Shown piece by piece: positions 6,420 through 24,800 of a stretch of DNA of 64,000 nt. The position numbers and the translations under genes are program-made. Position 1 is the first letter of the stretch; the number at the start of each line of letters is the position of its first letter. Source of the stretch: Polytrichum commune (Eukaryota > Streptophyta > Polytrichopsida > Polytrichales > Polytrichaceae); contig OX485808.1 in assembly GCA_950295325.1 (NCBI GenBank), positions 37,902,527 to 37,966,526 on the forward strand. The letters are read 5' to 3'. The notes beneath the pieces were generated by a model. It worked only from the letters and a program-made list of their open reading frames with translations. It was not told the DNA's origin and searched no databases.

Positions 6420-6439
6420 TTAACCCTTAAAAGAGGTTG
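6420..6439 (+). repeat. Left target duplication and left inverted repeat
   Basis: TTAA followed by CCCTTAAAAGAGGTTG; the partner is at 10324-10343. Confidence 0.9.
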
Positions 6440-7400
6440 CCCCGTTATTGTGGGGGCAAGTAGACGCCCTGTATTTCGCGCACTGGTGCATTTGGGTGCG
6501 GATATAGACCGATTCCCTGCACCGAATTTTATGCAATTTTGTTGGCTTGTGGGCCCCGAAGTGTAGCAGACTTCGGCGAAAGATTCCCACGAAATTGGTC
6601 GTGCAGAGAATTATTTGTGAATTTCTAAGTGCCCGCTGGTGCGGTGGGGTCTGGAAATGGAATACGTATCCATACTGTGTGTATACGGCTTGGGGTGGGG
6701 GTGCGCTGATACGGCGGGTGCAAGCGTGGGTGCGTCCTCTGTGTGCGATGTGGAGTGCGACAGGCAGTCACCCGGTCACTTTGGTAACCGGGGAAACCTG
6801 TTTTAGCCTGCAACCACCTTCTGAGGTGACCTCATGGGCAAGGAGTGTGTGCCACATGGACGAATGGGGCGCATCCTCTGAAGTGTGGCAGGACATGGGC
6901 CCCTGTCCCACGACAGGGGCATCCCAACCGTAACTCACAGGCTCCCCGCTGCGGCACGGTGTGTTCCGCTGCGAGGAGTGTGCAAATCCGAGTTCCGAAA
7001 TTACGGCAATTCTAGTCAGATGTGCGGCATGGAACTGTACACATATATAGCAACAATTGCAATTACTTGTCCAAAAATGTTCATACATTCAAAAGCCCGC
7101 ATACTGTGCGGAAATGTCCAAAATGTGTCTGCGGGATTGGAGCTCTCAACAACACTCCCACCCAATCCCTATACGAAACCCACCCCCCTGAGAACTATGT
7201 ACATGATCCACATGATTGTGAAACCAGGTTAGCTACAAGTCGGGGAACTAAGTGCGGTCTATGGAAGGAAGGAAATCGACGCTCTGTTCGGGAGTGTAGA
7301 AACGGCGGCAACTATCTGTGACGTCCCTCTGGTATGCAAATCGCGCTCGTTGTCTCCACGCCATGCCTATCCCTGTTATCGGCAACGAGGACCGTCCGCC
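6440..7400. other. Left interior of the TTAA element, no gene recognised
   Basis: This GC-richer stretch contains short inverted repeats such as CCGAAGT...ACTTCGG near 6557-6578. Several overlapping open frames exist on both strands, but none has recognisable motifs or a convincing start. It is downstream of the B3 exon on the minus strand and could hold its 3' part or untranslated region. Confidence 0.4.
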
Positions 7401-7420
7401 GTTCACACCCTCCTCACCTC

Positions 7421-8099
7421 GAAGGCCAGCGGACCAACCTGCGTGAATTGTACCGTGTCGCCGAGCTTCAATCCGTTGGCGGTGCAGAATCGTGCCCAGC
7501 CCTTCGTGAACGAGAAAATCGTCTGCTTGCCAGCAGTATGCGTGGCTGTCTTCACGGAGCATTGCATCGTCGGGCCGTGTAGGGTGTAAAACACACCATC
7601 GAACCCTGCCGCTCCGTGAGTGCGCCAGAACGCTGTTGGTACATCCTGCGGAAACAGCAAACGATTGAGTCCAGTAATCTTGCGGATGTCCAATCGTGCT
7701 TCTCCACGACTCAGCACCGAAGCTGCATGCTGGAAATACCCTGAACTTCCATACTGTGTGTGCAGATAGAGGAACCAAATAGTACTGTAAATGTGGTAGG
7801 GTTTGCACTCACAATTCTGCTGGAGTCAAAATTCTTCAAGTGCGTCTTCCGAATTGTTTTGCAAAATTGGGGTCGATCGTCACTCTGGACATCGGGGAGC
7901 ACCTTCGAGTGTCTCCTGTGACCATCGTCATCCTCGGCAGGCTCGCGCTCACAACCACCCAGCAGCCCGAATTCGACGTCGACCTCCTGTGCCTCCTCGA
8001 AGTCTTCGGCAGCGCATCGTTGGTGGTGTGCGACCACCAGACGTCGGTCGTCCACGACCTCGAATGTCAGAAACGCTCCGAGGCCAAGATTCTGCAGAG
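7421..8099 (-). CDS. B3-type DNA-binding domain protein (transposon cargo, partial model)
   Basis: Two minus-strand exons splice in phase 0. The upstream exon ends at 7812 before a GTGAGTGC donor. The downstream exon starts at 7733 after a TTTCCAG acceptor and runs to about 7421, where GTGAGG could be the next donor. The second exon contains most of a B3 fold: a hydrophobic strand with ITGLNRLLFPQDVP, then FSFTKGWARFCTANGLKLGD, then TVQFTQVGPLAFEV. The GW-x-x-F, Lx-x-GD and final F-x-V are the usual B3 signatures. The upstream exon has an acidic stretch (EDFEEAQEVDVEF) and a segment LTFEVVDDRRLVV that may be the tail of another B3 unit. B3 proteins are plant transcription regulators that bind DNA. 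No ATG was fixed; the frame enters the minisatellite upstream. It could be a decaying captured host gene. Confidence 0.5.
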
Positions 8100-8275
8100 T
8101 GGATGTGCAGAGTGGATGTGCAGGAGTGGATGTGCAGATTCTGCAGAGTGGATGTGCAGAGTGGATGTGCAGAGATGTGCAGAGTGGATGTGCAGATGTG
8201 CAGATGTGCAGAGTGGATGTGCAGAGATGGCCAAGATTCTGCAGAGTGGATGTGCAGAGTGGATGTGCAGGAAGG
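8095..8275. repeat. Minisatellite GTGGATGTGCAGA
   Basis: About 13 imperfect 11-13 bp units (GTGGATGTGCAGA and shorter GATGTGCA forms) are interspersed with ATTCTGCAGA. Long low-complexity frames on both strands here come from the repeat and are not genes. A lone unit reappears at 8758-8775. Confidence 0.85.
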
Positions 8276-8995
8276 TTCCAGATGTTTCAGCCGACATTCA
8301 GGTTCACTGAAATACAATGTTGGAGGTACACTAATCCAAACCCTGAACTGCTCCACAATGTCTATTTGAAGGCCTCTAAAATGGCCAAAAGACCCTTTGT
8401 GGTCATCAAGACCAAGAAGTATGTGCGGCATCAATGAAAAAAAACCCTCAAGGGAACACCTAATACCCCGGGAGGAATCAGCATAGTAAACATCCAAAAC
8501 CGTGAAGGGGTTAATAATGCAGATGTGTCTTGGCGGCGATAGATTTTCAGATGTGTCCTGCTGGCTCAAAAAACTCAGAGCCAGTATGGAAAAATCATGC
8601 CGCGGCACAAATTGAGGACACCGGCTCTCACTAAACTGCTATCCCTTACACAAACCTGTGTCACCTAAACATCTGGTCTAGGTTGAAATCACCACAGGAG
8701 CATAAAGACCAGAGCGTAAAGGCAGTTTTTATAAACATGCGGTTGCCAATCGATCCAGCAGAGTGGATGTGCAGGTCGCTCTTGGAAGTCCCAGCCAACA
8801 TTCAGGTTCACTGAAACACAATGTTTATCGGCACACTAATCCAAACCCTGAACTGCTCCACGATGTCTTTTTGCAAGTGATTTCCCAAATGGCCGAAAGA
8901 CCCTTTGTGGTCATCAACACCAGGAAGCATGTGCGGCATCAACGGGAAAAAAACCCTCAAGGGAACACCTAATACCCCGGGAGGAATCACAACAT
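8276..8995. repeat. Direct duplication of about 200 bp inside the TTAA element
   Basis: Segment 8276-8475 is repeated at about 8776-8988 in the same orientation. Shared landmarks include ACATTCAGGTTCACTGAAA, CCAAACCCTGAACTGCTCCA, AGACCCTTTGTGGTCATCAA and GAACACCTAATACCCCGGGA. Both copies are preceded by the GTGGATGTGCAGG unit. Small insertions and deletions shift the reading frame between copies, so coding function is doubtful. Confidence 0.8.
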
Positions 8996-9212
8996 GTGAC
9001 AAAGAACCACAGAGTACTCCACAAAGATCCGGCCACATCCCCTTGTAAATGTGGATCCTTTAATTCGAATTCTCGGCAACATCCGTTGGCAATGTAGGCC
9101 AATAGGGTCGCTCACACCGAGCGAGAATGCACATCGAAATACTATAAGCGAACAGTTACTCAACGTCGAGACCCGCTAGCCTAACACCAGCAAATTATTG
9201 CAACAACAAACC

Positions 9213-9824
9213 CTAAGCAACCACGCACAAATTGGGAGACGGGGCATGGTGTGTCCAAGTGCAGGAAGACGAACCTGCGGAGTGATGATGGGCGTCGATG
9301 GCGCGCGATCCCGCATTTGCACCGGCTGTGACCCTCCCCGGGCCATCCGCGCGAGGCGCTTCATGCCTCACACCCAGCGTGGGGAAAACGTGCCCACGTA
9401 GAAGGCTAGTCACAATTTCGGGGAACCTCCGGCGCTCACACCAACCCAAAATCCGCGCCGCGTGCCTGTACCAGAGATAGCGGCACCGCTCTTGCACTCC
9501 AAATTGTCCTCTCCGATTCCAGCTGCTGGGGCGTGGCTGCGCAAGGAGTGAGGATGCATCCAGGAGCTGCACCGCCCGTGCCGCGCCGACCTCAGAAACC
9601 CCTTGCCTGTTGAACCAATTTCGCAATTCAGACTCCAACAAAATGCGCTCTGCGCTCGCCGAGTCGCTGCCCCTCTCCATGTATACGCGCCAGAGCGCGG
9701 TGTGCCTTCCTTGGATATGCAAGCACGGATCCGCAAACGAGTTTGAAAATGGGTGAAGGACAATCCGCCCAAAACAAAACCTGTTGTTGCGAATCCGGGA
9801 CACCATTTTCCCCCTCAAGGCCAA
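9213..9824 (-). CDS. Hypothetical frame in the right part of the TTAA element
   Basis: A 200-codon minus-strand frame in GC-rich DNA, with two overlapping alternative frames of more than 80 codons. Its middle (RILLESELRNWFNRQG, then AARAVQLLDASSLLAQ) looks like amphipathic helices and may be genuine coding sequence; the C-terminal part is Arg/Ala/Gly-rich and probably not. The nominal first codon is not ATG, so if real it is an internal exon or begins at an ATG inside. I recognise no family. It lies upstream of the B3 exons on the same strand and could be part of that gene. Confidence 0.25.
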   Translation of the reverse strand: MALRGKMVSRIRNNRFCFGRIVLHPFSNSFADPCLHIQGRHTALWRVYMERGSDSASAERILLESELRNWFNRQGVSEVGAARAVQLLDASSLLAQPRPSSWNRRGQFGVQERCRYLWYRHAARILGWCERRRFPEIVTSLLRGHVFPTLGVRHEAPRADGPGRVTAGANAGSRAIDAHHHSAGSSSCTWTHHAPSPNLCVVA

Positions 9825-10323
9825 CCCAGTACCACAGACGTGGTCGTCGCAATCGCAAGCGCCTGTCTATCATGTCCAAATCGCCGGCGCCACGACGTCC
9901 TTAGGCCACTCAACAAAAGATGATGATCTCCCTAAACCCTAAACCTGGAGTGGAGAAGGTGGAGGGCGAAGCGAAAGCGGGGGAATGCCCTCGCGATTCC
10001 TTTGCCACACGAGCGTGTCCTCCCAACGACACTGACCGGACGAGGCGGTCACCAACGGCCATTTGAAATTACGCCGCGTCACCACGAGGACCGTCCCCGC
10101 TCAGCTTCCACGTCTACCGTATTCTGAAGGAATACGTATGCGTACACAGAAGTCACACTTATCTCGTCCCCGACATCGCCAGACAGCTCCAAAAATTAGA
10201 TGGAAAATCCCACAAGTTGCATTTAGGTATTGCCGACATATCCGTAGTTCGGAGACACGCCAGACTCGGTGAAGATAGGTCATCAGCAAGTGCCTAACCC
10301 TGACCGTAGGCCATATTGGCCTT

Positions 10324-10343
10324 CAACCTCTTTTAAGGGTTAA
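10324..10343 (-). repeat. Right inverted repeat and right target duplication
   Basis: CAACCTCTTTTAAGGG followed by TTAA, then the host sequence GGGCCCAGTGG that continues the interrupted repeat unit. Confidence 0.9.
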
Positions 10344-12185: not shown

Positions 12186-13317
12186 TATCACTACCTCCCT
12201 AAACCATCATACCGCCCAAACCCCCTCCGCATCGTCCTTAAGCCGCCGATTCCGAAATCCCTTCGCATCCCGAGATCTCATCCACCACGTCCCTTCGTAC
12301 TAATCACTCATTATGTGGCCTTTTACTTCCACCATCCCGTCATTATGGCGTTTCTTGAATGGGACCCACTCTCTCATTGTCTCTCTCTCTCTCATTCTCC
12401 CTCACTCTCATTCTTCCTCTCTCTCATTCTCCTCTTTCCACCATTGAAGCTTCCGACCCAAAGCTCCACTTCAAAACTCCCTCTTCTTTCTTCCACCACT
12501 TTTCTGGACTCTCTTCATTCTTTTTGGACTATCTTCATTTTGGACTCTCTTCATTCTTGCTGGAATACCACTTTTCTAAATTCTTGTCATTCTCTTTCTC
12601 TCCACATTTCTTCATTCTCTCCATTCTCTTGCTCCTCCTACTTTTCTTGTTTCTCTTATTTCTCCACCCTCTACTCACTTTCCTGATTCTCATTCTCTTT
12701 CTTGCTTCAACTGACTTTCTTGATTATCTTCTTTCTGTAGCTTCTACTCACTTCTCCATTCTATTGCTTCATCTTGCTTCCACCCACTTCTCCATACTCT
12801 TGTTCAAATCCAGAATGTGGCATTGCTGAAATGTGGAGAAAAGTGAGAGGATGAAGAAAGATTGGAGAGAAGTCCAATTCTGGTACTTGTAAGCAATCAT
12901 TTCATTCTCCTAATCTTCCATTCTATTCATGCTTTGGTTGCATTGTAGTGCTTGTGAAGTCCAATTCTGGAATTGTTGTTTGTGGTGAACCAGGGTTTGT
13001 TTGTTTCTGATGGTAGGGTTTCAATTGTGAGAATGTGGTGCATTTTTGGTGCACTAGGGTTTCAATTCGTTGGAGAATCTCACACCCAAATATGTTAGAG
13101 AAATTTAAGTGAGTTGTGTGATGCTTGGTTGTGATGAATTGAGTGAAATGCTAGAGGAATGCTCAAACTAGGATGCAATGAGGGTGTGTTCCTAATAATG
13201 TGAGACCAAAATTTCTTGTTTTTCTGCTTTGAGAGCATGAATGTATTTCACATGGAACTAATCTTTTAGGGTTTTGTTATGTGCAGAAACAAACATTGGA
13301 TTTGAACAACATTAGGC
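12186..13317 (+). promoter_or_regulatory. Probable promoter, pyrimidine-rich leader and leader intron of gene 2
   Basis: A strongly pyrimidine-rich stretch (about 12360-12800, CTCTCTCT and TTCTTC tracts) looks like a plant 5' leader and not like protein. A possible leader intron runs from about 12882 (GTACTTGTAAG) to the acceptor GTGCAG at 13281-13286, followed by a short exon that holds the ATG at 13318. No clear TATA box was seen. Apparent Ser/Leu/Phe-rich frames over the pyrimidine tract are composition artefacts. Confidence 0.45.
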
Positions 13318-13339
13318 ATGGCTCCACCAAAGAATCCTG
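13318..13339 (+). other. Alternative first coding exon of gene 2 (MAPPKNP)
   Basis: ATG in a good context (GGCATGG) opens a 22-nt coding segment ending at a strong donor GTGAGT (13340). It ends in phase 1, exactly like the H3-like exon at 14086-14116, so it can splice to 14219 and give MAPPKNP-VSGGVGRA. If it is instead spliced to the acceptor before the H3-like exon, the frame stops within a few codons and would act as a short upstream frame. The two exons therefore look mutually exclusive. Confidence 0.45.
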
Positions 13340-13413: not shown

Positions 13414-13903
13414 CCCACGGGTGTTCACCCGTGGGCCTCCTCACTCGCAACTGGTGGTGGGGTATGCCCACGGGTGTTCACCCGTGGGCCTCACCACTAC
13501 CAACTAGTGAGGTATGCCCACGGGTGTTCACCCGTGGGCCTCCCCACTCCTAACTGGTGGTGGGGTTGGCCCACGGGTGAACACCCGTGGGCCTCCGCAC
13601 TCCCAACTGGTGGTGGGGTATGCCCACGGGTATTCACCCGTGGCCCTCCCCACTCCTAACTGGTGGTGGGGATTGCCCACGGGTGAACACCCGTGGGCCT
13701 CCCCACTCGCAACTGGTGGTGGGGTATGCCCACGGGTGTTCACCCGTGGGCCTCCCCACTAGTAATTTGTGAGGTATGCCCACGGGTGTTCACCCGTGGG
13801 CCTCTACCCTAGTAATTTGTGAGGTATGCCCAGGGGTGTTCACCCGTGGGCGTCCCCACTCCTAACTTGCGGTGGGGTATGCCCACGGGTGAACACCCGT
13901 GGG
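13414..13903. repeat. Palindrome array 2, in intron 1 of gene 2
   Basis: Ten copies of the 22-bp palindrome lie at about 13414, 13467, 13517, 13570, 13623, 13676, 13729, 13779, 13829 and 13882. Spacing is 50-53 bp, with repeated spacers of the CTCCCCACTCCTAACTGGTGG type. Centres are TT in seven copies, AA in three (13570, 13676, 13882); 13623 has TATTC and 13829 has one arm change (CAGGGG). The spacer differs from that of array 1, so the two arrays were amplified independently around the same core. Confidence 0.9.
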
Positions 13904-14085
13904 CCTTTCCATTCTCTTGGAGGGGGCCATTTTTGGGTAGTTTTCTTTTGGCTTTCTTAGCTAACACAACATTGTTCCACCACAGGTTTATGTTTTTGAA
14001 GGTTATAGACAAGACCATGTGGTAGACAGTTGGTGTTTTATTCAGGTGCATAGAGGTGTCGCAGTGACCTCTCATTTGAATATAG

Positions 14086-14116
14086 ATGGCAAGAACTAAG
14101 CAAACGGCTCGTAAAG
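14086..14116 (+). other. Histone H3 tail-like first exon
   Basis: 31 nt encode MARTKQTARK plus one base, ending at the donor GTATAA. Histone H3 begins MARTKQTARKSTGG; after splicing to 14219 this protein begins MARTKQTARKVSGG. R2, K4, T6, R8 and K9 are present; S10 becomes Val. The preceding bases TATAG could be an acceptor, or the exon could be preceded by untranslated sequence. The rest of H3 is absent, so this is not a histone gene. Confidence 0.8.
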
Positions 14117-17100
14117 GTATAACCACAATACCTATGTGCACGTCAATGTTATATGAATTCTAAAATTATGAAAATTGTACACTATGCGGAGTACTAACAC
14201 GTGCATTTTCGTCTTCAGTATCTGGGGGCGTGGGAAGAGCGGTGAACTACGATATTGAGGTGTTGGGCCCAGAGTTGCAATGGTTCATGCAGTACAGTGG
14301 TTTCGGGGAGACAACGGTCCTCTCGCTATACACGAAGACTGGGCCTAATTCCACGTGGAGGAAGTTCCTAAAGGCAAAGCATGTGTTGGACATCCAAGCG
14401 GATGGGAGCCGCGTTCTGATTATGTGTAAGTCGTCAGAACGCAAGAAGGACTTCAAGGTTGCAGGATTAGTGGATACATTTTCGTATGCGGATGTGAACG
14501 AAGAACTCAACAATGAGGGAGAGAACATCCGCTCATTAAACGGTGAATTTCTCACCTATTGTATAGAATACAGCGAGACCAACAAGCATACAAGGTCCGC
14601 GGAGGAGAGATCAGTCATGATCGAGCAAGACTACAAGGCTGCTCTACGGCGAGTGACGGTAATAGTTGAGGAGGCGAAGGCGGCGAGGTTGGAGGAAAAT
14701 TTGAGGAAGAAGCAAATCCGAGACGGGAAGAGGAAGGATCAAGGTGAGGAACGTGCTATGTCGTCTAGGAAGAAGACAAGACCCGCCGAAGATCATGAAA
14801 TGATTGTCGAAGACACACCCGCCGAGGATGTTGTGGCGAAGAGAGGCAAGAAGAAAATTGTCGAAGATAGTCCATTTCTTGAGCTCGAGAAGATTCCGAG
14901 GCGATCAATTCATGGGCCTCCAGAAAAATCGGTTGGAGACAGATTGATGGATATGGAATTGTTTAAGAACAAGTACAATAGGGTTTGGATTTTTGGTGAA
15001 GGCGTCAATGGATTTGTAAATATTGCAAATATAGAGCGGGGCGATGCAGGGTATAACTGCCGGCCCATATCCGACGCACATTTGAGGGAGATGAAGACAT
15101 GGTTATTCAACTATGCCTTCATACCGAAGATCCATCCCAACTTCTTGACAATCGTTCCATCGGATAGGCGAAGGAAACCTACAAATTTTGAGGAGGTGAA
15201 GAACAAATCGTTCCACGTGGTGAATGGACAACACACGTTAGCAGCATGTTTGGAGTATGTGAATGATGCGGCCAGCACAGATGAGATGAAGAGGTTTTTC
15301 TCGACATGGCCCTGTAATGTGGTCTGGGCCCATGAAGGTGATGACGACCCTCTGTTTCACCTTTCTGGTGTTCTAAACCTGGATAGTGAATATAAGAAAC
15401 ATTTCCCATCATTTACGGAGTGCATTCAGCATGCCAAGAAGACGTGGATTAGGCGAGGAAGGCCTGACCGAACCGTACGCGAAAAGTCCAACAATGCGGA
15501 AGCGTTTAAGAAGTGGAAGGTATATTCCAAACTTGTGACTTTTGAATTTATCAATTGCTTGATCCCCACGGATGTTCACCCGTGGGCCACTATGATGCTG
15601 TTGGTGATTGATAGAAATAGAAGGAGTTGTATACATGGGGATTGATAAATGGCCGCTATTTGATACAGGCATTTGTTACGTGCGTCATGTGGACGTTCCG
15701 CGTGGAGAGGGAGACCAACCTCATCATGGAGCACGTGTTGCCCGTGTTGAGAGATGACATATGGGAGAAGTGGGAGAAGATATTAATGGAATACGAGAGT
15801 GACGAGTACATCGACCCAAAGACCGGGCTTCGTATGAAAGATACGAAGGGTTTCAAACCAAGGAAGGTGGTCAAGAACGATCTGAAGCAGTTTCGAGGCT
15901 TGACAGAGATGGAGCTCGACAAGGCAGCGGATCAAATCCTCTCCGCCAAAGATGGAGAGGATTACCCTAGGCATACCTTGAAAACTGTGCGCGATTGGGC
16001 GGTGAATAGGAAGAAGAAGAATGAAACCTATATCGGAATGGCACAGTGTTTAGACCCGACCCCAATGTACATCGTCAATGTGGAGCAGAAGGAGACTATT
16101 GATCGGGATTTGTGGAGATTGTGGAAGCGAGTGAATAACTTTGGAAAACTCCAGCGAGAACGACTTGTGGACTTGCTTGGAGCGGAGTACCTTATTGCCG
16201 CCATGAACCCAACAAGGAAGAGACTACCTATTCCCGACCGGTTCAAAGAAGGAGTGCGAAACATACTAGGTAGCCATAATACGGAGGTTTCGCCCGCCCA
16301 TGTCGTGTTGTCTATTGACAACAATTACGCGCTCAGCGGTGGGACAGTGATCGCACCAGTACTGCATGCTTACATGGACACATGTTTTCTGCCCGGAGTC
16401 CAGGCGGGAATAGGTAGTGGAGGTCGTATGATGGAGGTTGTCGACTCCACACTGCAAGGTCTTCGTCGCGCTTTTTCTGGCATTTTGGAGTCCCCCCAAT
16501 TGTGGACTGTGATTTCGGAATATCCGGACCGGCATTTCATACACAATGTTCTGAAGACACACTTGCCGAGAAATGTGAGATTTTGTGACGCAGTCTACCA
16601 TGGAACCAAAGAGGAGAAAATTGCTTCTCGCGATTGCTTCTTCGAAGCAAGTGCTCTTCGTGTTACAACCTGCATTTTTCCTAGTAGAGGCGAGGCAAGT
16701 TCGGAGGTGGCTGTGCTGCTCTGTGGAGGACGGAAGATGTTGGACGTGCATGAGCCTGGGCGATATGCACGTTATTCAGAGAAAAAGGCTTATTCCAATG
16801 AGGAGGCCAAGTCTTTATTCAAGGGGGAGTTGAGAATGCAGACCTATATAGATATCATCAAGCCTTCTTGTCTTGAGGGGTCATTTTTTCTGAATATTTG
16901 TGGAGGCAACAAGGTGCATATAGTGGCACATGTAAGTATTGAGCATCTTCTCCCAATTGTGATATTTTGGATATACCACGTTATGTAGATGATGTCCTAG
17001 AGAGCCATATCCTACACCAGGTAGGAAGGCCCACGGGTGAACACCCGTGGGCCTGGACATGCACCTGCCTTATAACCCCATGTTTGATAGCTCTCCAGAT

Positions 17101-20100
17101 TGTTATTTGTTTCCGAATCAATAAGTTGGGAATTTCACAATAACGAATTTGATATTTAATGGCTTTCTCATTCAATGGATGTGTTCAGGCCTTGGGTATG
17201 AAGGTAGTGAATATTGTGCCCGTGGAGATGGTGGAGGTGGCGAAGACAAAAATGATTTCCGCACTTGACTGGAGCCTACAAAGGTGGAATGAAGAAGGTA
17301 AAATCGCTGCCCGAGACCCGGAAGAAGAAGGAGAAGATGATATCGATATTGAATCGATTATTGAACGCGCATTGCGTCGCAAGCCTGTCAATGATGCTCC
17401 CCTGGAGGAGGAAGAGGATGAAGAGGATGAAGAGGAGGCGGTGAATGAAGACAACCCAGTTATTAACCTGGGGGAGTCTGAAAAGGAAGTGGAAGAGGAA
17501 GAGCAAGAGCAAGAGCAAGAGCAAGAGCAAGAGCAAGAGCAAGAGGAAGAGCAAGAGCAAGAGCAAGAGCAAGAGGATGCTGTGGCCGTTAACGCCGCAA
17601 TGGCGGACGCCATGGCGGAGCTCCTCTCGGAGGCCGAGGAGGAGGCCTTTAATTTCAAAACTTCAATGGTGATTCAGGAGGACATGCCACAGGTCGAGGT
17701 TCCCCACGGGTGTTCACCCGTGGGGGGTGTGGAGGGGGAGAGGTTGGGGGAGGCGGTGGGGCAGGAAGTTGTTCATAGGGAGCCTGAGCATAGTGTTAAT
17801 ATCGCGGTGGGATCTTTCTCGTCTGGGATCCCATCTACACCCGGACGTGGGTTTGTTGAAGTTGATACTTCTACACGAAATGAAGAACAAGCAGATGTTC
17901 GTCCTATGGGAGAATCCGAGGAGGAAGAGCGTCCACGGTCCGCGGAAGAGCCTCAATTGGAGGCTAATCCTGGCAGAAGGTCTACATCGAGACCATCTGC
18001 AAGGAAGAAGGTGAAAGCTCCCCGAAGGGGGAGGTCATCTCTACGTCCCCCTAGAGTTGTAGAACTTTCTCGATCTGCGGAGGCCATGGATCATTCTAAT
18101 CTTGAACGCGAGGTTGAATCTGGCGAAGTAGCGGATGTGGAGGATGAACTTGTGGACGTAATCATGTCTGAAGCTGCGCATGACGAAGGTGTGAGCACGG
18201 ATTTGAACGTCAGCTCACCTGTGGAGGAGGTCGCCGCTGCCGTGCTCGAAGTCCTAGGCCAAGGACGAATACACAGAGATTCCCCTGGTGTTGTGGTTGC
18301 AGAGGAGCCCACAGCTAGTGAAGCAGAGGTGATCATGCGAAAACAAGTCATATGCTTGGATAGTGATGATGATATGCCCGAGAAATGTGTGGAACTAGAC
18401 GTGAGGGTGAAGGTTAGAGATCGAGTTCCACATCGGGTTCGGGGGACGTTTGCGGACTACATGATGGACGATTCCGAGGACGAAGACTATGGGATGCCAG
18501 GGTACAACAGAGTTAAACTCAACTTTGTTGATTACCCTCACCCTATGCTTGCTTCGAGACCCGACACGGGCAAGGAATCGGATGGGAAGGAGAAGGTGCA
18601 TTTTGCACCATTTGTGGACAAATTTTTGGCAAAGGTTCCCGAGAACGTGCGATTGAATCTTGCGCATTTATACAAGTCGTATGACTATCACAAGATGTTC
18701 GCTTATCTCTCCACTCCAGCGTTTTGTGAAGCAGTGAAGGTGAAACATGTTCTACATGCCGCTTCATTGAAGAAAATGAGAAAGAGATGGACCGCGTTTG
18801 AAGCTCCAAAACATCGTGGAGGACGAGGTCAATTCCCGGGATCCTCCGCCGCTCAAGCTGGCAGTGTTGTGGATTCTACCATGGAGATCATCGACGTCAG
18901 TGAAGTGCCAGATTCTCCAAGGAGGGATGTCCATGTTGGCCCTGTTGCTGAGGGTCAACCGTCTTCCTCCAATTTGGTTGCGGCAGAACGGGAGGTCATT
19001 CCCCCGAGTTCTCATGACGACCCTGCACTCCTAGACCGAGCTCCAGGTATCATATATGGTGTTATTTGATTGGAATTGGTCCCACGGGTGTTCACCCGTG
19101 GGTCCCCTGGTTTGTAGTTTACAATTTCCACGCAAATTGTTAGATCATGTCCAATACTTGATTGATATTTTGCCCACGGGTGTTCACCCGTGGGAGAGTA
19201 TGGTTTTCAGCATGTGGATCTCATAAGTTATGTGTTGATGTGGTCATAGGTCCTACAGCCACGGCCGAATTACCTCCTTCGGTACGATGTTCTCCCCTAG
19301 CTCGCAAAACTAATCAATAAATGTGCAAGCATTATTTTCTATTGCGGATGCATACATATGTCAACCCAATCTGTTGTTTCCTAGTCGAGAAATATCCATT
19401 AGAATCTATTGTTTCCTTAGATTAAAAACCTTTAGAATGACTTGAGATTTTGTCATCGCCAGATACTCACCTCTCCAAGCACTGTTGTCCATCGGAGAGA
19501 GAAGATATGGTTAGTGTTGGATGTCAACGGGATCCTTGTGAGGTCAACAAAGTGCGACAATGTCAACACCAGGAAGTCTCTTGAATCACAATATAGCCCC
19601 CTTATAACTGGGGAGTTGGCTCCCCTCTTTCTCCCATATAGTGCCTTAATACCTAGGAAAGGACTGGGACGCTTTCTGCGTTTTGTTCTTTCGAACTTCC
19701 ATGTTGTCATCTGGTCGTCGAAGCTCATGAAGAATCTCCAGCCAATTGTGCGATACTTCTTCAAAGGGTGTAGACATCCAGAGTATGTCATTGGGCAAGA
19801 ACTATGTGACACTCTGAAGGATGAGAGAGGACAAGTTCTTCCTAGTCCTATGAATTCCGATTCAAGCTTCTTCGTGAAAGACCTGAGCGCATTTTTTGAG
19901 TGGAGCCGGACACATCCTCTGCCGCACATGAAGCAACCCTCTCATAGGACCACACTACTTGTTGATGACTCCCCTTACAAATGCATCCCAAACCCTCCTG
20001 GGAGCTACGTCAACCCTCCCCCATTTCTGTCGAACCAAAGCTTGGACACTCTGCATAATTACCTACAAAGGCTCTTGAGTTCTGAACAATATGTGCCAGA

Positions 20101-20227
20101 TTTTGTGGGGAGCAACCCTTATCCATCAGGCCAGGGACCCTTCAATCTAGAGTTGCCAAACTCTCAGATTTATAAGCAATCATTAGCTAGACATACAAGT
20201 CTGAAATCTGCCCGTATGGTCCCATAG
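14086..20227 (+). CDS. Gene 2: H3-tail-mimic / ParB-like / FCP1-like fusion protein
   Basis: Six exons join with consistent phases: 14086-14116, 14219-15519, 15669-16931, 17189-19046, 19250-19281, 19463-20227, giving about 1749 residues. All introns are GT-AG. Order of parts: residues 1-14 MARTKQTARKVSGG, matching the H3 tail through K9; a novel region to about 150; a Lys/Arg/Glu-rich helical linker with basic clusters (KKTRP, KRGKKK) that may be nuclear signals; a segment with FHVVNGQHTLAAC near residue 342, a degenerate form of the DGxHR motif of ParB/DGQHR domains; a large region ending in FLNICGGNKVHIVAH plus ALGMKVVNIV, shaped like a methyltransferase motif I but not proven; Glu-rich repeats; a basic patch; VICLDSDDD (SUMO-binding-like) near 1252; and an FCP1-like domain from 1496. 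It is probably nuclear. No known protein with this whole architecture comes to mind. The fusion rests on splice-site inspection, so two adjacent genes remain possible. Confidence 0.65.
14900..15519 (+). other. ParB/DGQHR-like segment of gene 2
   Basis: Residues about 240-444. The core VVNGQHTLAACLEY (15217-15258) aligns with the hydrophobic-D-G-x-H-R-x-x-A signature of ParB N-terminal and DGQHR-type domains. Here Asp is Asn and Arg is Thr; the Gly, His and Ala are kept. Bacterial ParB proteins bind nucleotide and spread from palindromic sites. The same fold is used in DNA-associated nucleases. The changes mean activity may be lost or altered. Confidence 0.45.
15565..15586 (+). repeat. Palindrome copy in intron 15520-15668
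   Basis: One copy (one change, CACGGATG) sits inside this 149-nt intron between exons 2 and 3. Confidence 0.85.
15669..17330 (+). other. Possible Rossmann/methyltransferase-like segment of gene 2
   Basis: Exon 3 and the start of exon 4. The segment SFFLNICGGNKVHIVAH (end of exon 3) and ALGMKVVNIV (start of exon 4) look like a beta strand, glycine loop, helix and second beta strand as in a SAM-binding motif I. A second glycine-containing strand (VAVLLCGGRKM) precedes it. I see no unambiguous DPPY-type catalytic motif. Function is unassigned; the fold call is inference. Confidence 0.3.
17030..17051 (+). repeat. Palindrome copy in intron 16932-17188
   Basis: A perfect copy with centre AA near the middle of the 257-nt intron. 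Confidence 0.85.
17400..17579 (+). repeat. Coding GAGCAA hexamer tract (Glu/Gln-rich)
   Basis: Units of GAGCAA with occasional GAGGAA encode alternating Glu-Gln after an acidic EEEDEEDEE segment (residues about 936-996). It is likely disordered and prone to length change. The reverse frame (Ser/Cys-rich) is a shadow. Confidence 0.85.
17703..17724 (+). repeat. Palindrome copy inside coding exon 4
   Basis: The only copy inside a proposed exon. It is translated in frame as PHGCSPVGG without a stop. No better splice pair that removes it was evident. Confidence 0.65.
19081..19194 (+). repeat. Two palindrome copies in intron 19047-19249
   Basis: Perfect copies with centre TT at 19081-19102 and 19173-19194, 92 bp apart. 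The next intron (19282-19462) has none, nor has 14117-14218. Confidence 0.85.
19463..20227 (+). other. FCP1/NLI-type phosphatase domain of gene 2
   Basis: Residues 1496-1749. WLVLDVNGILVRS is the phosphatase motif I, VVIWSSK motif II and LLVDDSPYK motif III of the FCP1/SCP family of HAD phosphatases, whose best-known substrates are phosphoserines of the RNA polymerase II tail. The canonical DxDx(T/V) is DVNGI here: the nucleophile Asp is kept, while the second Asp is Asn. Similar DxNG forms occur in plant NLI-type proteins as I recall them, so this may be ancestral and not a fresh loss. The domain ends about 25 residues before the stop. Confidence 0.75.
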
Positions 20228-20463: not shown

Positions 20464-20485
20464 CCCACGGGTGTTCACCCGTGGC
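20464..20485 (+). repeat. Palindrome copy downstream of gene 2 stop
   Basis: One copy about 235 bp after the stop codon, in the 3' region or in an intron leading to the exons at 20697-21257. Confidence 0.85.
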
Positions 20486-20696
20486 AATGTGGTGGTTGAT
20501 TCAATGAATGTACCAGAACACTTGGACAATGTTAGTTGACAACTTGGGAGTTTGGGTTGTTATGGGGAACATTAATATGTAGGACTTAGTCGGCTATAAT
20601 TCAATTATTTTTGCACATGTTCATCTTGCACCCACTGGCTCCTCTTGCATATAATGTCCTGCTTCCATGGAATCTTATGTTCTTGTACCATAACAG

Positions 20697-21257
20697 CATT
20701 CCCCATTTCCAACGCGACCTAAGAACTATATTGCCACTCCACCTCGCGGACACCGTCCTCCGGATGCTAACGCCGACTTCGCCGAAGTGACATCTCCATG
20801 CCCTAAGGTAATTTATTTTCCACATGAATCTCATTTTTTGTGGTTGTGTTTCGTCCTGGGGATTCTAATATCATTTTGGCCTATGTTGTGTTAGACACAT
20901 ATGCTCCAAACAAGCGATGTTGCGCTTGCGGTGGCTGTTCCGGTCGCGGTCGTGGTTGCAGCTCCGGTCACACGCGCTCGTGTGAAGAGACACCTTTCTC
21001 TCCAAACCACACAGCCTAGTGAGCCCACGGGCTCGGGAAATAGTTCTGGATGTTGGAGGTGTAGTTCACCCAATACCACCTCATCCATGTCTGATTACAT
21101 GGCTGCAAGGGTGAAACAACTTCGAGAAGCTACAGCTTTGACGGCGGAGAAAAAACGGCTTGAAGAACTCAAGTGCAAGCAATGTAGTGTAGCTCAAAGG
21201 ATACCCCATGACAAGATGTTGAAAATGATTACTGATTCATACTCCTCTTGTAGATAG
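20697..21257 (+). CDS. Two terminal exons of an unresolved gene or of a gene 2 isoform
   Basis: Exon 20697-20807 (acceptor AACAG, donor GTAATT, 37 codons, Pro-rich with RPKNYIATPPRGHRPPD) joins in phase 0 to exon 20895-21257 (acceptor TTAG). The second exon encodes an Ala/Val-rich stretch, a Ser/Thr/Cys-rich linker and a C-terminal helix (MAARVKQLREATALTAEKKR) that could form a coiled coil, ending in a stop at 21255-21257. An in-frame stop lies directly upstream of the first acceptor, so an earlier exon is needed. It is on the same strand as gene 2 with palindromes around it, so alternative splicing past the gene 2 stop is possible; the donor I tested (20213) does not fit the phase. No family recognised. 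Confidence 0.4.
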
Positions 21258-21820: not shown

Positions 21821-24800
21821 GCACGTTCCCAATGCACGTTCCCATCGGTACGAATTGTCTCATAATGGTCCAATTGGCTCATTTTAGTTAATATCCCCAT
21901 CTTGCCAATATATTGTAGGCTATGTTTAGGATGACTTCATGTTATTGTCATCCATATATTGAATCGAGACAATGGAAAGTCTCAAATTACTTAATATAGT
22001 GTTTCTATTTAATTGTTGTTGGTAAAAAGAAGATATATAATAAAAAAATTATGGCATTGCATAACTCCAATTGTAAGTGCCACCAATGAATAGTGTCGTG
22101 CTGATGAATCAAATCTCAATATGGAACCCACGACACAAGCAAGGATGTCTTCCTTTTAAGAAGCAAAGTGCAAATGTTGATGGACCCTAAAAAATATAGG
22201 GCAGGGACACTTTGTCTACCTGAATGGAAATTCCAAATCAATTTTTCGAAGTTTCACCTCGAAACATGTTTTTTTATAGTATCTTTCACCTTACAATCCA
22301 TGTGTTCACAAAGTGGAAAGTTGAAGGTCCATAATTCACCCTTTGGCTAAAAACACACTAGGTACATGATGAAGGGATAACATTTTGTGACACCTATGCA
22401 AAGAAAGTGTATATATATATACAATTCAATGGTTTTTGAAAAAAATTAAATCTAATTTCTTCTAAATTGAGGGTCACGGACCCAAATTTAGTTTGTTTAG
22501 ACCAATTGCATTGATTTTGTAACAAACTTGGGAGAAACAAGAATGAATGGGTGCCTATAAGCATATCTCTCATCCGTCCATGTTGGAAAACCTACCCTTC
22601 TATATTTGTGGTTGATTCTTGGGGCGGGCACTTAAGGCCCATTCACATGGGGGTTCAAGTTTCAAGTTCCACTCATGTTAGCAAGTTCCAACATGGAGGG
22701 AAGGTCCGAACTATTGAGCCTCAAGAAACCATTAAAATATGGTGTATTATCATTGAAGACATGTATTGATTATTTAATGCAAAAACATTCGTAAGACTTG
22801 TTTTAAGAGTTGGGTCTAGCTTTTTGCTTGACCCAACTCTCAACACAAGTCTCACCTCCAAAAAAGTGTTGCCATGTAGGTATCCCTGTCATACTTAGGA
22901 CTTTGGACTTGGGACCCCGCTTGGGAAGCGCACTCATTGTTAAAAGTATGGACACACGTGGGTGCACGAAAGGGGTATCAATTGTGCCTAGGGGTTACAA
23001 AATATACATAAGGTATGGGTATTATTTATTCTAACTTTGTAAGTATACTAGGCATATTATTCATACAATCCTAGTTGTAGTTCTATGTTTAAGTTCATAG
23101 TCAATTATAATGAAGTGCATAATCTATAAGAGGTCCAAATGAATATTTCATCCAATATGTGAACCACATTCATCCATAAAATTTAAGGTTTAGGATGAGA
23201 GGGGGAAAATCACTTTTTGGAAGCCCTAAGGGTTTCTTATTGTGGACCTTGCAGGTGAAGCGAGGGTGTAGCTCGTAGGTGGTTTTTCTTCTCTTCTTCT
23301 TGTGGTTGCTTCTTGTTCCAATATATGTCTTGTCATGGTCACCGGCTCCTACAATCCCCAATCTTATTTTTTAGGTGTTGCTTATATTGTCCAAGGATAG
23401 GCTCACAAAGAATTAAGTCTAGTTTGTTATATGCCAAACCTAAAGTTCGTTTGTCTAGAGACGGTGATGATGATTATTCATTGAAATTGGGATGTGATTG
23501 TACGGTATCATTTATCTCTCATGGAGTACTTGAAGGAGTCAAGAAGAGAGGGAGAAAAACAAGTTGGCCAAAACATTAACCACCAAGACTTGGTATTTGA
23601 GAAAGTTCTATAGGATGCACCGCAAAATTGGCAATAGGTGGATTGAGTATTGACAACCAATAGACCTCTTGGACTGGCCTTCTCATATGGAAATAGGGTT
23701 ATGCTGGTATCACATTAAGAATGGGTCAATGTGAATCTATGATTTGACGGATCATTTGATGGTAGAGTTAGAAACCATCATGGCATTAGCTACAATAACT
23801 TATATTGGAAAACCAAATTTGGACGAATTGCATCCAATGGATGAACAAATTTTCAATGATAAATAAATATGTCTTGGGTGCAAGCATGGTAAAGTGGACC
23901 AAAAAAATGCTCTAGTACACTAAAACCATAATGTTTTTGGTCAAAGGCCTTAAAGTAGTAGCAAAACGTTGTTTAAATTGGATTTCTTTTCATGATGATC
24001 TTTGTTCTGTGTTGAATACTCAAATGTAGAAAATGAAGTTGAAATCTTCAATACTTATCATTAAAAGCATTTCAAATGTTGCTCACTAGATTAAGATTTT
24101 GCAAATTTTGGTATCAAATCATAAAATGAGTAATCTCCAACCTAAGCACCAATTTTATGGTGCTTTCATCGGATGAATGAGAGGTACGTTCGTATGCAAC
24201 AATCTCCTCTCACCCTTGAAAAAGCAAGTTTTTCCACACCCCCATGACATGTGGCAAAATGCACATCAATGGCCATAATGATGCCACAAGCTAAATAAGA
24301 TGCAAATATTTTCAATGAAATAGTGATTGAACATGGAAGATCAATGTGGTGAACATTAATCCTCTCATTACTGCACCCTCGGGGGGGGGGGTAGTCATTG
24401 GTTGGAGTAGCAATATACGTGCGAACAAATGATAGGGTATTTTAAAAACATGGGGGCAAAAAAATATAAATGGACTTAAGAGTAATATAGGGTATCAAAA
24501 ATGGCACTGGACATCTTTAAAGTATTATAGGGTATGTAATAATATGTAATTTGGAATTATAAGTAATGCGAGCCATTTTTCTATTAACCCAAAGTAGAAA
24601 TTTACATAATGATAGCATGTGAAAAAAAAATGAGAGTAATACCCCCTATAAAATAGTGGTTGTTCGCACCTATATCCTTAACTTTTTAACACACTGCCCC
24701 CCCCCCCCCGAGACTGCACCCAACTTAGATTATTCTTGCCTATCGAGTTAACTTAGGGCCACTTCACACATGAGCCAAGAGCCGTGACCATGAAATTATG

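Follow-up and report, generated by a model that had tools for sequence, protein, structure and literature searches.

A multicopy transposon of the moss Polytrichum commune with a conserved exon encoding a histone H3 tail

The whole stretch of Polytrichum commune DNA analysed here (64,000 nucleotides, hereafter the window) holds an exon that encodes MARTKQTARK, identical after its methionine to residues 1-9 of histone H3, and this exon belongs to a multicopy DNA transposon of about 20 kb with terminal inverted repeats. The comparison of its copies indicates that selection at the protein level maintains the tail across five clades and that the identity with H3 is not due to chance. We hold it as nearly certain that the exon is real and selected, and as very probable that mimicry of H3 is the reason for its selection. 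The fuller reading, in which the selected protein would act at the palindromes of its own element as a decoy against silencing readers, stands at even chances, and we infer its steps after conservation from sequence.

The tail exon and its gene

The coding part of the exon (ATGGCAAGAACTAAGCAAACGGCTCGTAAAG, 14086-14116, forward strand), identified by genome pattern matches, copy comparison and a tree, encodes MARTKQTARK and one further G, with GT directly after it. It ends in phase 1 and is continued in phase by VSGG from an exon starting at 14219 with AG just before it; our reading of the window thus confirmed both the exon and its continuation as originally predicted. The GT donor stands directly 3' of the exon in 54/54 copies in which the exon was found, and an ATTCAG/GT acceptor lies upstream of the tail ATG in 10/10 aligned rows. 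The tail-bearing exon (exon B, 14046-14116, forward strand) would accordingly comprise acceptor, short leader and H3 tail, and it probably starts at 14046. Its earlier description as a first exon held for the coding part 14086-14116 and failed for the start at 14086, as 14046 is likelier and another start exon lies upstream. The 14116/14219 junction is predicted from the conserved splice sites and the phase.

That other start exon (exon A, 13287-13339, forward strand) has its ATG at 13318, encodes MAPPKNP and ends with a phase-1 donor; its coding part ATGGCTCCACCAAAGAATCCTG (13318-13339), followed by GTGAGT, lies about 0.7 kb upstream of the tail exon. It is conserved as MxPP[KR][NK]P with the phase-1 donor in clades W, M, E and D, and was not found in the two clade C loci read. 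Skipping of the tail exon is predicted to give an in-frame MAPPKNP-VSGG protein, while its inclusion ends the upstream frame at once (MAPPKNPGA*) and leaves the tail ATG as a possible new start. As the two start exons are in phase and the acceptor is conserved, the tail looks like an optional module that would be put on or left off by exon choice. If exons A and B lie in one mRNA, the upstream ORF MAPPKNPGA* would precede the tail ATG, which counts against the explanation that we consider best.

Six coding exons with matching phases yield a predicted protein of 1749 aa with a single terminal stop. All lie on the forward strand: after the tail exon come exon 2 (14219-15519; tblastn, clade consensuses and phase), exon 3 (15669-16931; copy comparison and phase), the acidic, EQ-rich exon 4 (17189-19046; phase), which has a palindrome inside it at 17704, exon 5 (19250-19281), placed by splice sites and phase, and exon 6 (19463-20227) with the stop at 20225-20227. 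In frame in exon 6 is a NIF/FCP1-like domain (PF03031, 45.7 bits vs a cut-off of 21.8, E 7.4e-12). The usual motif of NIF/FCP1 phosphatases is DxDx; phosphatase activity is doubtful here, since DVNG stands in its place. Exons 2 and 3 gave no profile match in Pfam, NCBIfam and PDB. The NGQH motif of exon 2 may resemble one of ParB/DGQHR domains, and the same searches returned no ParB-like profile match for the exon 2-3 protein and no recognised DNA-binding domain in the protein. Two single-sequence folds were too poor for comparison (pLDDT 36.3 and 32.7). The claim that the rest of the protein is not a histone agrees with the Pfam result, as no histone fold (PF00125) appeared when the reading frames from exons 2, 3, 4 and 6 were scanned. 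Clades W and D share 75% identity over positions 20693-21251, downstream of the stop, and this stretch may represent another exon or another gene.

Occurrence of the tail and selection on it

The occurrence of the tail was determined in the 408 Mb genome with a degenerate 30-nt pattern holding every spelling of the ten tail codons, with the reversed pattern as control. The pattern gave 54 matches and the control 0, and these matches were 17 H3 genes (14 full-length PF00125 matches and three intron-containing H3 genes) and 37 copies of the window's transposon. The shorter MARTKQT pattern gave 73 matches (control 0), comprising the 17 H3 genes, 54 element copies and two out-of-frame matches on C1 (L082:1010 and L083:1003), which lie inside a long ORF of another repeat and were rejected as independent mimics; the two may serve as a measure of chance. 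As every match was an H3 gene or an element copy except these two, and as the controls were empty, chance identity of the nine residues was rejected, and the earlier judgement that it was very unlikely was upheld. Copying of other histone tails was likewise rejected, as the H4-tail pattern matched true H4 genes in 10/10 cases, and no relative was found in viral contigs.

Relatives were gathered by tblastn with exon 2, which gave about 50 near-complete relatives and further fragments among the best 97 of 740 candidates, those that were scored. The window and 57 loci were examined around exons 1 and 2; the choice was based on exon 2, independently of the tail, and fragments without the N-terminal part fall outside this sample. 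The exon was seen in 54/58 examined copies and was displaced in two more (L085, L086), the others being a fragment without the exon region (L059) and a decayed copy (L060). An extra copy from the MARTKQT search (L084) brought the copies with the exon to 57. The tail is spelled exactly in 37 of them, and the others carry A7T (17 copies, two of them also R2K), A7S, T6I or R8H (one copy each). At A1, T3, K4, Q5 and K9 all variation among the 57 copies is synonymous, while R2 is kept in 55/57, T6 in 56/57 and R8 in 56/57.

The copies fall into five clades, W (that of the window), M, E, C and D, with exon 2 consensus proteins 70-87% identical. MARTKQTARKV is common to all five consensuses, which differ at 1-5 tail nucleotides, all silently, and the Val at position 10 pointed out in the original prediction is constant among them. 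On a tree of 54 copies built on exon 2, the internal-branch tail changes outside codon 7 were synonymous in 7/7 cases, with a neutral probability of 4e-5 to 2.4e-4 by assumed transition bias. Three replacements outside codon 7 (R2K twice and T6I) were all on terminal branches, and with terminal branches included 10/13 changes were synonymous (P 7e-5 to 7e-4). The W consensus is 87-94% identical to those of M, E, C and D in exon 1, 49-83% in intron 1 and 51-72% on the 5' side. The tail is not uniquely conserved, as exon 2 too has fully invariant stretches (29/427 nine-residue windows among the five clades).

Conservation of the exon with synonymous changes in related copies, proposed beforehand as a sign of selection, was found between the clades, codon 7 excepted. 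Most of the nine residues put forward as fixed are indeed kept, and equal fixation of all nine does not hold, with Thr7 in 17/57 copies. The H3-like GG at positions 12-13 is also present; it is weak evidence of mimicry because it is encoded in the next exon and is common to both predicted isoforms. Taken whole, the original prediction was right about related copies and synonymous clade changes and missed the multicopy transposon gene, the two start exons and the private palindromes.

The A7T replacement is a G to A change in CAG, a CHG site, and lies on scattered branches of the tree; several Thr7 copies have an open exon 2. Of the changes in clade M, 56% are C>T or G>A and 14% the reverse, and the density of changes is highest at CHG sites (46 at 97 sites, compared with 35 at 112 CG and 116 at 421 CHH sites). 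The CHG position and this bias make recurrent deamination in methylated copies the likely cause of A7T. Unordered parsimony made Thr ancestral (17 vs 18 steps), and the order was reversed once A-to-G cost twice (19 vs 22). As the measured substitution bias supports the costlier A-to-G weighting, Ala is favoured as the ancestral state, without certainty; were Thr ancestral, several clades would have moved to the Ala of H3 in parallel.

The carrier transposon and its palindromes

The transposon occupies positions 1-21900 of the window (forward strand), with its 3' border read in six copies and its 5' border in L079; the 5' end of the window copy lies at C6:37900234, 2.3 kb ahead of the window. 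The element has inverted ends (ATRGGGATATTAACTAAAATGAG), near-identical over 23 bp, the 3' terminal inverted repeat being CTCATTTTAGTTAATATCCCCAT (21878-21900, forward strand; comparison of copy ends). The 3' border was identical in six copies with unrelated flanks. Target duplications of 4 bp were seen in 3/3 copies with both ends read, namely ACTC, ATAG and, for the window copy, CTTG, which stands at 21901-21904 and, by the 5'-end reading, before the 5' end too. The element ends were sought in L067 and L081 and were absent from them. The copy on C3 measures 19,947 bp and lacks 3.9 kb that the window copy has at 6424-10339 (copy comparison), a segment flanked by short repeats.

A profile search identified, on the reverse strand at 2-1201, part of a 692-aa DUF7869 (transposase-like) ORF that the start of the window truncates. 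The DUF7869 match (PF25273) reached E 3.2e-46 in the C3 copy, and a match at C6:37901730-37902152 lies within the window's element. DUF7869 was found on the opposite strand, 8.9-22.5 kb upstream, for 41/54 tail exons, at 25.8-52.6 kb for 4/54 and not at all for 9/54, among the 53 matches used for pairing out of the best 150 of 1491 candidates. The 1491 first-look candidates in the genome suggest a large DUF7869 transposon superfamily. Beside the DUF7869 ORF, a 287-aa ORF (L066:1666-2526, minus strand) gave the impression of a BAH-like look, for which no match was obtained in Pfam, NCBIfam and PDB, leaving BAH without support.

The element also carries a private motif, the perfect 20-bp palindrome CCACGGGYGNNCRCCCGTGG, in 19 copies within the window's element; the remaining 42.1 kb of the window and the shuffles contain none. 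The C3 copy has 18 in the element and none in 5 kb of flanks. By motif search, six exact palindromes lie upstream of the DUF7869 ORF (1697-2088) and eight exact ones, along with imperfect ones, in the intron that separates exon A from the tail exon B (13415-13902), where they are spaced 50-53 nt apart. Intron 4 holds two more (19082-19193), and single ones are located in intron 3 (17031-17050), within coding exon 4 and downstream of the stop (20465-20484). Genome-wide the palindrome occurs at 1063 places (control 0), roughly 57 copies times 18-19, and among the 50 of these 1063 places that were listed, 41 clustered with known copies or fragments and 9 were isolated.

The palindromes differ by clade. 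The core is GGGTG..CACCC in 41/41 sites read at W, M and E loci and GGGCG..CGCCC in 33/34 sites read at C and D loci, the remaining site being mixed, so that both arms changed together between clades. Two distant protein relatives with 25-29% identity, L064 (C1:37773000-37778999) and L065 (C4:20996000-21000999), have no MARTKQT start nearby; the palindrome repeated in them differs from that of the window's family and is built around GGAGGTTCCTC..GAGGAACCTCC. As the cores are clade-specific and the distant relatives have a palindrome of their own, the proteins and palindromes appear to travel as pairs, which suggests that such pairing is a general trait.

Candidate functions of the tail

The layout of the element resembles that of the VANDAL transposons of Arabidopsis. 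In VANDAL21 the VANC-binding motifs form tandem repeats, situated both within introns and ahead of the transposase, and their type changes from one subfamily to another; VANC proteins bind them and cause loss of DNA methylation (PMC5735166). The likeness lies in the second transposon-encoded protein, in the placement of the repeated motifs and in the variation of motif type by subfamily; in the moss element, motifs specific to it are repeated inside introns and close to the transposase-like gene, and they vary by clade. It differs in having a DUF7869 transposase-like gene and a 20-bp palindrome motif, and is known here from its sequence. The tail protein is not a VANC family member, as Pfam scans gave no match to DUF1985 or DUF287. 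The available part of the VANC account (PMC5735166) mentions no histone tail, whereas the moss candidate factor carries that of H3.

In the mechanism that we favour, Met removal would expose an ARTKQTARKV N-terminus on the second protein of the transposon. The protein, or a partner, would bind the palindromes, so that many H3 tails would be presented on the DNA of the element itself. These tails would engage host readers or writers of H3K4 and K9, in the likeliest case as a decoy holding silencing factors away from the element, and exon choice would decide whether the protein has the tail (exon B) or lacks it (exon A). Candidate plant readers are SHH1, a reader of unmethylated K4 combined with methylated K9 that assists in bringing Pol IV to silenced loci, and ZMP, whose PHD finger reads unmethylated K4 (both from the available part of PMC7617993). 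Exons of the SAWADEE domain were found at two places in the genome. Together with the VANDAL-like layout, the specificities of SHH1 and ZMP and the conservation of residues 1-9, these exons favour a decoy at the element's own palindromes. Action of the tail protein at these palindromes seems slightly the better bet, and a net anti-silencing effect comes a little short of an even chance. We propose only tentatively the full counter-defence, in which a DNA-addressed, exon-switched H3 tail would coat the palindromes and readers, for example those bringing Pol IV, would bind the protein and not nucleosomes.

Enzymes of H3K4 such as LSD1-like demethylases and WDR5/COMPASS-type complexes contact residues 1-5, which are kept here (R2 in 55/57 copies, the others in 57/57). 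It is nevertheless unlikely that the tail serves to recruit such enzymes to the element or its targets in a SNAG-like manner, as conservation is no less strict at R8 and K9 than at K4 and contact with R2 and K4 only needs neither R8 nor K9; its precedent is SNAG, which mimics the H3 tail and recruits LSD1 (PMC12612597, available part). Tethering of the protein and transposition complex to chromatin with H3-tail readers, with a consequent choice of insertion sites, would suit the presence of the DUF7869 ORF in the same element, yet it leaves the palindromes spread through introns unexplained and we regard it as improbable. We give as little credence to the tail as a substrate that host K9 methyltransferases would methylate for self-limitation or dosage control of the element: K9 is invariant in 57/57 copies and automethylated mimics of G9a type offer a precedent (PMC9768651, available part), but Val10 stands in place of Ser.

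Conservation of the N-terminus for nuclear import or for RNA or protein contact, with H3 identity by convergence, would accord with its basic character and with the shared GG belonging to the constant exon. The 9/9 identity at the very N-terminus, the 0 control matches and the synonymous drift with constant protein make it very improbable. Transposons capture host exons, but a functionless captured H3 fragment amplified by the transposon is scarcely credible, and capture of an H3 first exon was left unsupported, because no exon ends after K9 in the three intron-containing H3 genes read, the R2 codon is AGA or AAA in the element vs CGN in the 17 H3 genes, and the substitution pattern is one of purifying selection.

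The decoy reading joins kinds of process that are known separately, histone mimicry by parasites and anti-silencing by transposons; no description of their combination, with an exact nine-residue N-terminal H3 tail encoded by a transposon, was found in the open-licence literature. Histone mimicry is known in host regulators and in viruses, where influenza NS1 has a short C-terminal motif imitating the H3 tail, unlike the nine N-terminal residues of the transposon. SNAG belongs to host transcription factors and imitates H3 without identity, whereas the transposon tail is identical to H3 residues 1-9. The two are alike as N-terminal peptides imitating the H3 tail on non-histone proteins (Snail/GFI1; PMC12612597, available part). 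G9a/GLP too are non-histone proteins with a motif like that of H3K9, which is methylated and then bound by HP1, but it lies inside a host enzyme and is followed by a phosphorylatable Thr, whereas the transposon tail is followed by Val (PMC9768651, available part). From H3 itself, with which it shares residues 1-9 and the GG at 12-13, the transposon protein differs in its 1749-aa model, in Val10 and in the histone fold not being found.

If the tail does bind silencing readers, transposons would counter silencing through the histone code itself as well as through DNA methylation, and a DNA-addressable H3 tail would be at hand as a tool. The natural mutants (A7T, R2K, A7S, T6I and R8H), the two predicted splice forms and the two palindrome types make the idea directly testable. 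Alternatively, the DUF7869 protein could be the one that binds the palindromes, or they could function as hairpins in RNA.

Two further observations concern clade D. The intron between exons 2 and 3 is missing there, giving an 895-residue frame with one stop (L063:3311-5995), and coding exon 4 contains an in-frame amplification of the palindrome, which is read there as GPSHGRSPVG repeats (L063:6113-6685).
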